DNA of 64,000 bases, from positions 22,087-86,086 of the forward strand of contig DLKD01000062.1 in the NCBI GenBank assembly GCA_002477755.1, given 5' to 3'. The translations under genes and the position numbers were made by a program. Positions within the stretch are counted from its first letter, which is position 1. The number at the start of each line of letters is the position of its first letter. The DNA comes from Gordonia sp. UBA7599 (GTDB taxonomy: Bacteria > Actinomycetota > Actinomycetes > Mycobacteriales > Mycobacteriaceae). The notes beneath the pieces are model-generated. The model worked only from the letters and a program-made list of their open reading frames with translations. It had not been told where the DNA came from and did no database searches. Below are positions 7,643 to 19,254 of this stretch, one piece after another.

Positions 7643-7844
7643 CACTGCCGCCTCCCCCGTGCCGTCGTGTTGTCGAGAATCTACCGCCGGCACCACGACC
7701 GTCAGGCGAGAAGCGCACAGATCAACATGCAAGTCGATGGAACCGAACGGACACCGGATGCGTCTAAGTAATCGTGAGGGGGAGAGACATCACCGCGAAG
7801 AGCGCTCATGGAACGACAAGTGGACCACAGTCCAACACCTGCCG

Positions 7845-7946
7845 GAGAAAGAGGACGACCCCGGCCAATGGGGGGAGAAGGCCGGGGTCATCGCGTTTCA
7901 GCCCCGGGGGGTCGGGCTGAAATCACCCGGTTTCTTCAACCGGGTA
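7845..7946 (-). ncRNA. 6C small RNA (B11-type)
   Basis: On the minus strand three perfect hairpins follow one another. Hairpin 1 is ACCCGGTT with a 5-nt loop (7925-7945). Hairpin 2 is TTTCAGCCC/GGGCTGAAA with loop GACCCCCCG (7896-7922). Hairpin 3 is GACCCCGGCC/GGCCGGGGTC with loop TTCTCCCCCCATT (7857-7889), followed by a pyrimidine-rich tail. Two hairpin loops each holding six cytosines define the actinobacterial 6C RNA. The M. tuberculosis 6C RNA (B11) is also on the minus strand next to the Rv3661-type phosphatase gene, as here. A promoter at 7953-7982 predicts a start at about 7945. The 3' end is approximate. The family is implicated in growth and DNA-replication regulation. Confidence 0.88.
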
Positions 7947-7952
7947 AAACTC

Positions 7953-7982
7953 ACTCTACGCGCGTTCCCTGTGAATGTGCAA
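7953..7982 (-). promoter_or_regulatory. Promoter of the 6C RNA
   Basis: Minus-strand -35 TTGCAC (7977-7982) and -10 TAGAGT (7953-7958) are separated by 18 nt. The predicted start lies 7-8 nt downstream, exactly where the first RNA hairpin begins. Confidence 0.65.
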
Positions 7983-8063
7983 TAGCAACTTGCATTGGCA
8001 AGTACCTGTTTTGCCTGACCTGGCCATTTTCTCGTGCCCGGCCCCGGAACGTCGGCGTGGTCG

Positions 8064-8069
8064 TACCCT
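8064..8069 (+). promoter_or_regulatory. -10 element TACCCT of the HAD phosphatase gene
   Basis: TACCCT ends 7 nt before the GTG at 8077, which indicates a leaderless transcript and supports that start. Confidence 0.5.
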
Positions 8070-8076
8070 CAAGGGC

Positions 8077-8925
8077 GTGTCATCCGTCGGCGCGCCCGCC
8101 ACCAGCAGGGCCAATACCCGCAACAGCATCGCCGCCTTCTTCGACTTGGACAAGACGGTGATCGCCCGCTCCAGTGCGCTCGCCTTCACCAAGCCGTTCT
8201 ATTCGGGCGGCCTCATCAACCGCCGCTCGGTGATCAAGTCTGCCTACGCCCAGCTCCTGTTCACACTGACCGGCGCCGACGAGGATCAGGTCGAACGCCT
8301 GCGGGCCCACGTCACCGACATGTGCCAGGGTTGGCCGGTCGACCAGATCAGCTCCATCGTCGACGAGACGCTGCACGACATCGTCGAGCCGCTGGTCTTC
8401 GCCGAGGCCACCGAGCTCATCGCGAACCACCAGGCGCGCGGGCACGACGTCGTCCTCATCTCCGCGTCGGGGTTGGAGATGGTCGAGCCGATCGGCGCCA
8501 TGCTGGGCGTCGACGCAGTGCGCGCCAGCCGCATGGCCGTCGTCGACGGCAAGTACTGCGGCGAGCTCGAGTTCTACTGCTACGGCGAGGCCAAGGCCGA
8601 TGCCATCCGGGAACTCGCACAGACCAAGGGCTACGACCTGAACGAGTGCTACGCCTACTCCGACTCGATCACCGATTTGCCGATGCTCGCCGCCGTCGGA
8701 CATCCGACTGCAGTCAATCCTGACCGTGCACTGCGCCGCGAGGCCACGACAGCCGGCTGGCCGATCCTCTCGTTCGACCGGCCCGTCGGCCTCGCCGACC
8801 GCCTCACACCGTCGGCCCGCACGGTGGCCGTGTCGGCCGCGGCGGGTGCCGGCGTGGCCGCCGTCGGCGCGCTCTTCTACTACGGCTGGCTGCGCAAGCG
8901 GCTGGCTCCCGGCGCGCATATCTAA
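8077..8925 (+). CDS. HAD-IB phosphatase with C-terminal membrane anchor (Rv3661-like)
   Basis: The 282-residue protein has HAD motif I FFDLDKTVIA (about residue 21), motif II SASGLEMVEP, a motif III lysine around GEAKADAI and motif IV YSDSITDLPML. This is the SerB/HAD-IB layout for Mg-dependent phosphoester hydrolysis. The C-terminus has one Ala/Gly/Val-rich membrane helix (about 250-272) followed by LRKRL, so it probably sits on the inner face of the membrane. The GTG at 8077 fits family N-termini and a leaderless promoter. The gene lies between the 6C RNA and the Ms1-like RNA, as in mycobacteria. The substrate is not known. Confidence 0.85.
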   Translation: MSSVGAPATSRANTRNSIAAFFDLDKTVIARSSALAFTKPFYSGGLINRRSVIKSAYAQLLFTLTGADEDQVERLRAHVTDMCQGWPVDQISSIVDETLHDIVEPLVFAEATELIANHQARGHDVVLISASGLEMVEPIGAMLGVDAVRASRMAVVDGKYCGELEFYCYGEAKADAIRELAQTKGYDLNECYAYSDSITDLPMLAAVGHPTAVNPDRALRREATTAGWPILSFDRPVGLADRLTPSARTVAVSAAAGAGVAAVGALFYYGWLRKRLAPGAHI

Positions 8926-9001
8926 GACCCTGCAACCCACACTTCCCAGTGGGGACGTGCACAGTTTTCGGCGCGAGAATCTGTAGCCGGGAAACCCTTG
9001 C

Positions 9002-9017
9002 TGTGACGTAGGTCACG
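9002..9017. promoter_or_regulatory. CRP/GlxR-type site overlapping the Ms1-like promoter
   Basis: The 16-mer TGTGACGTAGGTCACG matches the TGTGA-N6-TCACA consensus of mycobacterial Crp (Rv3676) and corynebacterial GlxR in nine of ten half-site bases. It sits over the -35/spacer of the proposed Ms1-like RNA promoter. The crp gene is in this window (18580-19254). Binding is inferred. Confidence 0.55.
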
Positions 9018-9033
9018 GGTGTAGAACTGATCC

Positions 9034-9285
9034 TACGGAAGCCCGGAAGGCCAAGTCCGACCCGGAAGAGAAGGATCGAACTCCCAACCGGAATTCCCAG
9101 CACGGGCGGCAAGCACCCACGCGGAGCGCGCCGCTATAGAGGCAAAAGCGTTGTGCACCTGCGAATTGCCGGTCTCGGATCGACAACCCCATTCGCCGAG
9201 GTGAGAACACAACCCACCTTGCACGCTTGGTAACTTGGGTCCGTGCTATGCGGGCGGCGACCATTGGGTCGCCGCCCGCAGCGCT
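9034..9285 (+). ncRNA. Ms1-like RNA (RNA-polymerase-core-binding small RNA, MTS2823 type)
   Basis: The 372 bp between the HAD gene and the Rv3662c-like gene have no credible reading frame. They contain a promoter-like pair, TTGCTG (8998-9003) and TAGAAC (9022-9027), and end in a 13-bp perfect hairpin (9250-9279). The implied plus-strand RNA is about 250 nt. M. tuberculosis MTS2823, homologue of M. smegmatis Ms1, lies at exactly this place and orientation. Ms1 binds RNA polymerase core enzyme and accumulates in stationary phase. The call rests on synteny, promoter and terminator. I could not fold the whole RNA, and both ends are estimates. Confidence 0.65.
9250..9279. terminator. 13-bp hairpin ending the Ms1-like RNA
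   Basis: GCGGGCGGCGACC (9250-9262), loop ATTG, then the exact complement (9267-9279). There is no U-tract, as is common in GC-rich actinobacteria. It lies between converging transcripts and may serve both. Confidence 0.7.
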
Positions 9286-9297
9286 GTCTAGGGGGTC

Positions 9298-10083
9298 CTA
9301 CCTGGGCCGGGCCGCTTCGGCAATGGACGCCGCTTCGGCCGCCCCAGCCTCGAGCGCCTCGCAGCACAGCACGATCCACGCACCCAACCCGTCCGGCGTC
9401 CCGGCACCGAATTCCTGCGCCAACCGGTGGTATTCGGGCGACCGCTTGAGCCACGCCACTTCCGGTACGCCGAGGTTGTGCGGATCCAAACCCGTGGCTA
9501 CGCACGCCAACCGGGAGGCACCGCGCGCCACGATCCCGTTCGCCTCGGCGAACGGCGCCAGCGCCAGCAGCTCGCCGTGCACGACGGCGACGACGACCGG
9601 GGCCGGAACTCCGGCCGGCGCGGTGATGATCTGGGCGAGCAAGTTCAGCCGTGCACTCACATCGGGGTCCGGCCGGGGACGCCCGAGATCATCGGCATCA
9701 GCGACCAAGTCGGCAGCGGCGAGCATGTGCAGCCGGGCCAGCGCCTGAGCGGGCGCCCGCCGGTAGACACCGACGAGTTGTTCCAGCGAATCCCCGTCGA
9801 GCGCCTGCGCGACGCGCATCGCACCGGCGAGCAGCGGATCGTCGTAGTCACCGTCACGGCGCAGTTCCACACTGCCGCCGTCGATCGCGGCCGAACTCCG
9901 ACCCCCTCGCCACGATGCCTCCATCGCCGTCGACGGCCATCCACGCAGATTCGCCGGATGGCGGTGCACCGCCGCGAGCGCATCGCGCGCCCGTTCCGCT
10001 GCCGCCGCCACCCCGGGCAGCGCGACCAGCGGTGCAAGAGGGTGCGGGAATTCGGGGCGTCCGGGCCCTGCAGCGGTGGTCAT
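9298..10083 (-). CDS. Conserved actinobacterial hypothetical protein (Rv3662c-like)
   Basis: A mainly alpha-helical, Ala-rich soluble protein of about 261 residues. The start of the mature sequence (PHPLAPLVALPGV, then a helix with LAAVHRHPANLRG) and the position after the Rv3661-type gene match M. tuberculosis Rv3662c. The central segment around SSAAIDGGSVELR resembles the N-terminal helices of Fic-associated proteins, but no HPFx(D/E)GN Fic core is visible, so I assign no activity. The ATG at 10083 is taken as start; a GTG at 10107 would add eight residues. It is divergent from the methyltransferase gene. Confidence 0.7.
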   Translation of the reverse strand: MTTAAGPGRPEFPHPLAPLVALPGVAAAAERARDALAAVHRHPANLRGWPSTAMEASWRGGRSSAAIDGGSVELRRDGDYDDPLLAGAMRVAQALDGDSLEQLVGVYRRAPAQALARLHMLAAADLVADADDLGRPRPDPDVSARLNLLAQIITAPAGVPAPVVVAVVHGELLALAPFAEANGIVARGASRLACVATGLDPHNLGVPEVAWLKRSPEYHRLAQEFGAGTPDGLGAWIVLCCEALEAGAAEAASIAEAARPR

Positions 10084-10143
10084 CGCCACCAAGAGTACGT
10101 CGGACACCTACCGACCCACCGAAATTAGGGTTACCTTAGTAGG

Positions 10144-10959: not shown

Positions 10960-11034
10960 CGGCTCCGTTGCATGGGCGTTGCACTCGAATGTCCGATCTT
11001 CCCGGCATCCCTGCGCGAGCGCGACCGTCGTGAC

Positions 11035-11040
11035 TACCCT
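11035..11040 (+). promoter_or_regulatory. -10 element TACCCT of acs
   Basis: TACCCT ends 6 nt before the ATG at 11047 and no Shine-Dalgarno sequence is present, so acs mRNA is probably leaderless. Confidence 0.45.
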
Positions 11041-11046
11041 CACAAT

Positions 11047-18579: not shown

Positions 18580-19254
18580 GTGGACGAGGTTCTGGCACGG
18601 GCAGGCATTTTCCAGGGCGTCGAGCCCAGCGCTGTGGCGGCGCTGTCCCAGCAGCTTCAGCCGGTCGAGTTCCCGCGCGGGCACGTGATCTTCAACGAGG
18701 GCGAGCCGGGCGACCGTCTCTACATCATCCAGTCGGGCAAAGTGAAGCTCGGCCGACGCTCCCCCGACGGCCGCGAGAACCTTCTGACGATCATGGGTCC
18801 GTCGGACATGTTCGGTGAGCTCTCGATCTTCGACCCCGGACCGCGCACCTCGTCGGCGACGACGGTGACCGAAGTCCGCGCGGTGTCGATGGACCGCGAC
18901 GCGCTCAAGGGCTGGATCCAGGACCGCCCCGACATCGCCGAGCAGCTCCTGCGCGTGTTGGCCCGCCGCCTGCGCCGCACCAACAACAACCTCGCGGATC
19001 TGATCTTCACCGACGTCCCCGGGCGCGTGGCCAAGCAGCTGCTGCAGCTGGCACAGCGCTTCGGTACGCAGGAGAACGGTTCGCTGCGCGTGACCCACGA
19101 CCTCACCCAGGAGGAGATCGCTCAGCTGGTCGGTGCCTCGCGCGAGACCGTGAACAAGGCGCTGGCCGATTTCGCCCAGCGCGGCTGGCTGCGCCTCGAG
19201 GGCAAGAGCGTGCTGATCGCCGACTCCGAGCGCCTCGCGCGCCGGGCCCGCTGA
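18580..19254 (+). CDS. crp: cAMP receptor protein Crp (Rv3676-type global regulator)
   Basis: A 224-residue CRP/FNR regulator. The N-terminal cyclic-nucleotide domain shows [13 protein letters not shown] and [21 protein letters not shown], the phosphate-binding cassette with G, E, R and two small polar residues. The C-terminal winged helix carries [20 protein letters not shown] as recognition helix. The near identity of this helix to M. tuberculosis Rv3676 (and corynebacterial GlxR) implies the TGTGA-N6-TCACA target; a good site lies at 9002-9017. The GTG at 18580 follows GAGAGG. In mycobacteria it controls whiB1, rpfA and many carbon genes. Confidence 0.95.

Follow-up and report, generated by a model that had tools for sequence, protein, structure and literature searches.

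The Ms1 RNA gene of Gordonia sp. UBA7599 was found to carry a candidate Crp/GlxR-type operator inside its promoter, mostly in the spacer between the -35 and -10 elements, and the half-sites of this operator were strictly conserved within the genus. Judged from this arrangement, the Ms1 promoter is probably occluded by Crp-cAMP, whose release would then switch Ms1 on. Both Ms1 and Crp sites are already known separately, and what appears to be new is the candidate Crp operator within the Ms1 promoter. No statement on such a site was found in those parts of the open-access literature that were covered.

The window, that is, the whole stretch of 64,000 nucleotides that was analysed, belongs to an assembly of 3.8 Mb that is 93.9% complete. 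The following features of the window are referred to:

7850-7927, minus strand: 6C RNA (RF01066), beyond the HAD gene on its upstream side, about 1 kb from Ms1
7975-8925, plus strand: HAD-IB family hydrolase (TIGR01490, PF12710), upstream neighbour of Ms1; the coding start may be later
8998-9003, plus strand: -35 element TTGCTG (TTG 100% in the alignment)
9002-9017, no strand: putative Crp/GlxR-type operator TGTGACGTAGGTCACG (motif match and conservation)
9022-9027, plus strand: -10 element TAGAAC (alignment)
9035-9287, plus strand: Ms1 RNA of about 253 nt (RF02566, found again in the genome search; covarying fold)
9037-9097, plus strand: 5' hairpin of Ms1 (consensus fold of 65 RNAs; single-sequence fold)
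9099-9247, plus strand: long central hairpin of Ms1 (single-sequence and consensus folds)
9250-9279, plus strand: 3' terminator-type hairpin with a 13-bp stem and no U-tract (fold energy and terminator scan)
9298-10107, minus strand: downstream neighbour ORF (ORF list)
18580-19254, plus strand: crp (CRP/GlxR), presumed ligand of the operator (phmmer, HTH_Crp_2)

In a permissive Rfam scan, the RF02566 Ms1 model matched positions 9035-9287 of the plus strand over its full length (model positions 1-304) with 148.8 bits and an E value of 1.4e-39. This score is below the RF02566 gathering score of 162, a library threshold and no biological property, and for this reason Ms1 was not reported for the window by the default Rfam scan. 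Scores below the gathering score were obtained for 7 of the 16 genomes with an RF02566 match in the genome search, including all three Gordonia. The 6S family was absent from the six Rfam matches of the window at E values up to 10. The HAD-IB hydrolase (205.7 bits for the HAD ORF against TIGR01490, with a cut-off of 98.3) directly precedes Ms1, which is the position expected for an Ms1 RNA, and neither Pfam nor NCBIfam gave a match at E 0.001 for the ORF on the other side. According to the ORF list, the gap between these two ORFs extends from the end of the HAD ORF at 8925 to the end of the minus-strand ORF at 9298, leaving 372 gene-free bp (8926-9297). Taken together, the covariance model, the HAD-IB neighbour and the covarying structure described below support the assignment of this locus as the Gordonia Ms1 gene. 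The sequence-only reading of the window, which had proposed an Ms1/MTS2823 locus in a gene-free stretch of 372 bp containing promoter elements and a 13-bp terminal hairpin, was thereby borne out, the promoter elements being TTGCTG and TAGAAC and the stem lying at 9250-9279. Position 1 of the Rfam model falls on A 9035, one base from the start at about 9034 given in that reading; the mapped start of M. smegmatis Ms1 was carried over by way of the Rfam model instead of a direct alignment. As a separate observation, the gathering score of 162 bits misses whole-model matches in Gordonia, g24 and g25.

The single-sequence fold of the window RNA was better than those of all 200 of 200 shuffled sequences (z -4.0). 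Covariation was examined in a sample obtained from 187 loci; a heuristic search for the RNA ends left 134 of them, and a limit of 270 nt together with a per-genus cap reduced these to 65. Columns with at least 70% gaps were removed from the alignment used for the consensus fold. The consensus of the 65 RNAs contained 70 pairs, with changes on both sides in 37 of them (a count made without a shuffle control). Standard pairs were present in 89.7% of the cells compared to a shuffle mean of 82.9% and a highest value of 84.0% among 200 shuffles, this control being one that does not keep the relatedness of the 65 RNAs. Within the 5' hairpin, most pairs of the inner stem were shown by the consensus fold to vary on both sides. 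The central hairpin consists of a lower stem GCACGG/CCGTGC, a partly open middle and an upper stem from about 9148 to 9213, so the long hairpin with an open centre that had been named beforehand as the mark of an Ms1-type fold was recovered in both the single-sequence and the consensus fold. The 3' hairpin at 9250-9279 showed an energy of -32.7 kcal/mol (z -5.5), and no U-tract was found after it. The length from the Ms1 start to the closing stem ranged from 169 to 407 nt among the 134 loci (heuristic cut), a range that is probably due to apical insertion after window position 9165.

In the RNA-anchored alignment of 187 loci, the TTG of the -35 element was present at 100%, and T 9022, A 9023 and A 9026 of the -10 element at 99-100%, in Gordonia and the other aligned loci alike. 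The final letter of the -10 hexamer was A or C, not T, in most aligned loci. The two elements are 18 bases apart in the window and 17 bases apart in 261 of 267 parsed loci. The Ms1 promoter was not called by a generic sigma-70 scan. Promoter parsing required TTG, and the absence of changes in TTG in the parsed and tree sets is therefore given by construction; where several fits were possible, the one with the best half-site score was preferred, by which the half-site scores of degenerate loci may run slightly high, the 187-locus alignment being free of parsing. Ten of the 277 loci (three Gordonia, three g24, three g25 and one g93) could not be parsed because of unusual -10 letters and were kept in the tree count.

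The putative operator TGTGACGTAGGTCACG contains the half-sites GTGA (9003-9006) and TCAC (9013-9016), is centred at 9009.5, which is -25.5 from A 9035, and matches nine of the ten specified letters of TGTGA-N6-TCACA. It overlaps the -35 element by two bases, with the rest located in the spacer ahead of the -10 element. In the window as a whole, TGTGANNNNNNTCACR was found twice compared to 0.17 expected, a number that was reached in 3 of 100 shuffles, and the looser GTGANNNNNNTCAC was found twice compared to 1.25 expected, which was reached in 40 of 100 shuffles. Genome-wide, the looser palindrome occurred 68 times compared to 19 times for the reversed control. Since GTGANNNNNNTCAC is not rarer than expected by chance and may be met about once per window, the single site in the window is weak evidence when taken by itself, and a match arising by chance in GC-rich intergenic DNA had to be considered.

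The conservation of the site leaves that explanation with a negligible probability. All 59 of 59 Gordonia genomes carried GTGA-N6-TCAC at an identical register; in their alignment, the eight half-site columns were each conserved at 100% and the six central columns at 53-63%. On a tree built with FastTree from 135 nt of the RNA, with the promoter excluded, the half-site columns of these 59 genomes showed no changes, compared to 10 to 17 changes in each of the central columns (mean 13.5); over all 277 loci, the mean was 16.5 changes per half-site column and 61.5 per central column. Full sites were also found in 15 of the 27 genera sampled and in a second family. Fixed half-sites around a variable centre are the pattern that contact with a dimeric protein would give, and it is this conservation, not the lone match in the window, that makes the candidate operator convincing. 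The near-consensus Crp site over the -35 and spacer region that the sequence-only reading had described thus stands, both by its position and by its invariance in Gordonia. A further set of 28 named stretches, which overlaps the 59 genomes, comprised all matches of a 31-base RNA-core pattern (with one N), all 28 of them from Gordonia; a strict pattern for the site was matched by 26, and the two exceptions were one stretch whose end cuts the locus (L267) and one that starts with GTTG instead of CTTG (L252). Counted from the ACGG start, the centre of the site fell between -23.5 and -25.5 in 171 of the 172 full-site loci with ACGG, while three further full-site loci without ACGG fell outside this count.

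Because the site lies wholly inside the promoter and shares two bases with the -35 element, its conserved letters might alternatively reflect the core promoter or a DNA structure and no operator at all. This is very improbable, as 21 loci of g29, g95, g30 and g101, which match only 0-4 of the eight half-site letters, were shown to retain CTTG and TA(C/G)AA together with a 17-base spacer (18 bases in one case). The hexamers thus stay in place where the palindrome is absent, which argues that the palindrome is not a core-promoter requirement. Moreover, the TCAC half-site is located in the spacer, a region in which sigma is not known to contact bases.

The presence of crp in the same segment, to which the sequence-only reading had also drawn attention, holds true as a matter of gene order, with the crp ORF located 9.5 kb from the Ms1 operator. 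By phmmer, its product matched the CRP/FNR-family solved chains 3h3u, 3d0s, 3i54, 4cyd and 4byy, of which we take the first three to be M. tuberculosis Crp and the last two to be GlxR. It was the sole HTH_Crp_2 protein above the Pfam cut-off in the 94%-complete assembly, with six weaker matches below the cut-off. Crp was present at 88-96% identity in all 35 of 35 family genomes searched, and these included operator-less genomes, so that absence of the operator does not mean absence of Crp. A stretch of 11 residues, presumably the recognition helix, was identical in all 30 of 30 Crp sequences read.

The binding protein cannot be told from a motif alone, and a dimeric factor other than Crp might bind the palindrome; a report places LexA at the MTS2823 locus (PMC4191392). 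We regard this as improbable, since TGTGA-N6-TCACA is the consensus for both Crp1 and Crp2 of M. smegmatis (PMC7739888), only the one HTH_Crp_2 protein exceeded the cut-off in the assembly and the same class of motif is found upstream of acs. As a positive control, GTGA-N6-TCACA was found in the 150 bases ahead of acs in 20 of the 22 named Gordonia stretches that hold acs. The window itself contains a second Crp-type palindrome at 11029-11044, just 5' of the acs (acetate-CoA ligase) ORF that extends from about 11047 on the plus strand. The 6C RNA gene of the window presumably has its M. tuberculosis counterpart in ncRv13660c. A Crp site upstream of ncRv13660c has been described (PMC4117774), and such a site was therefore sought near the 6C RNA; no exact Crp-type site was found in 7780-8120, and with up to two mismatches only 7780-7793 was detected there.

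The mechanism that we propose for Crp would start from a sigmaA-type Ms1 promoter with a Crp (GlxR) operator held in its spacer. During growth, Crp with cAMP would cover the face that sigma must read and would keep the promoter off, whereas upon growth arrest cAMP or active Crp would fall, the operator would empty and the holoenzyme could bind, after which Ms1 would accumulate and bind sigma-free core RNA polymerase. We infer all three of the steps that involve the operator, namely binding of Crp at the site, the need for cAMP and repression. With its centre near -24, the operator overlaps the -35 element and the spacer, so that a bound dimer should, from the geometry, block sigma and exclude RNA polymerase, which makes repression the most likely outcome. 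In M. smegmatis, Ms1 was shown to bind sigma-free core polymerase and to increase about 130-fold in stationary phase, the driver of which was left open by its discoverers (PMC4191392). Overexpression of an adenylyl cyclase in M. smegmatis led to more cAMP and averted the non-culturable state (PMC3871856), which is the direction expected if cAMP opposes the growth-arrest programme. Respiration inhibition, however, was reported to increase cAMP in M. smegmatis (PMC12713383), and low cAMP is thus no general mark of arrest. In the main text of a ChIP-seq study of M. tuberculosis Crp, three sRNAs with an upstream site are named, and MTS2823 is not among them (PMC4117774).

Crp might also act at this operator as an activator or as a bifunctional switch, either by bending the spacer or together with CarD or RbpA, and this we hold to be unlikely, though less so than the involvement of another factor. 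In C. glutamicum, GlxR activates ldhA, in stationary phase as well (PMC7999487); activation is thus also within the reach of CRP-type regulators, which counts against the assumed repression. When CarD was depleted in stationary phase, no gene was affected more strongly than Ms1, the sign of the effect not being given there (PMC12709188); an effect of this strength means that other inputs exist and would fit a promoter dependent on initiation factors, as would the -10 hexamers that mostly end in A or C. The M. tuberculosis Crp sites, however, form two clusters, at -60 to -40 and at +1 to +20 (PMC4117774), and a centre at about -24 falls outside both of them, in addition to which the site overlaps the -35 element. 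Repression by occlusion remains the reading that we prefer.

Compared to M. smegmatis Ms1 and its homologue MTS2823, the window locus showed the same general organization, with a whole-length RF02566 match, a HAD-IB hydrolase as upstream neighbour, A as the first base, a TTG-type -35 element and a TA-type -10 element. As described for Ms1 (PMC4191392), its RNA forms a long hairpin that is open in the middle and is flanked on either side by a short one. It differs from M. smegmatis Ms1 by its length (about 253 compared to about 300 nt) and by scoring under the Rfam gathering score. Its promoter spacer further holds a full Crp-type operator, of which no mention was found in those passages of the Ms1 papers that were covered. 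Like 6S RNA, Ms1 works on RNA polymerase and has a long hairpin with an open centre, but unlike 6S RNA it binds the sigma-free core (PMC4191392). The putative operator itself resembles Crp/GlxR operators in its half-sites and 6-bp spacing; it differs from TGTGA-N6-TCACA in that it ends in G, as in many relatives, and from Crp/GlxR operators in its place, with the centre at about -24 in the spacer of a promoter that belongs to an RNA gene.

This strictly conserved operator names Crp as a candidate driver of the stationary-phase rise of Ms1. If the proposed control is correct, cAMP would bear on how the RNA polymerase pool is controlled; with Crp in the promoter spacer of a polymerase-storing RNA, a single second messenger would set both the choice of genes and the pool of free polymerase. 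This coupling of the transcription machinery to cAMP would be open to a simple mutational test, and lineages without the operator could serve as natural controls.

Over all loci, a full site was found in 182 of 277, divided into 59 of 59 in Gordonia, 74 of 109 in g23 (taken as Mycobacterium) and 49 of 109 in the rest of the family. Besides Gordonia, g23 is the largest genus of this family, and Ms1 scores were highest there. The g23 count is biased towards full sites, as many of these loci had been picked as the best hits of a full-site query; in an earlier locus set, full sites were present in 9 of 19 g23 loci, and a count from that set which accepted the site at any place in the segment (60 of 128 loci) is superseded by the fixed-register counts. 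In one group of g23 loci, the right half-site is TCTA. Within the order, loci were drawn from the best HAD matches and not at random; the same arrangement was present in 15 of 24 loci of the second family, f14, while it was found in 0 of 12 loci of f16, where the core word CCCACGCG is missing too, and in 0 of 3 loci of f2 and f8. A search on DNA level beyond the genus gave no match in 24 genomes of the order, and beyond the family the Rfam Ms1 model matched one genome only, weakly (33.3 bits).

By parsimony, presence of the site changes 21 times over the 277 loci. Repeated loss of the operator is a likely, but not the sole, reading of this number, as the direction of the changes was not polarised and the tree is short. 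The many loci without the operator show that Ms1 can exist without it. It also seems reasonably likely that Ms1 was part of the Crp-cAMP regulon in the ancestor of the order and that the switch was lost repeatedly, in several genera and in part of the Mycobacterium-like g23; if so, other controls would have taken over Ms1 in those lineages. Regarding the RNA gene itself, a match was found in 289 of 297 g23 genomes searched, and no match was found in two g23 genomes of 3.3 Mb in a single contig (G613 and G648), for which loss of Ms1 in reduced genomes is possible. One genome, G457, was found to hold two Ms1-like loci, L171 and L205, each with GTGA-N6-TCAC.
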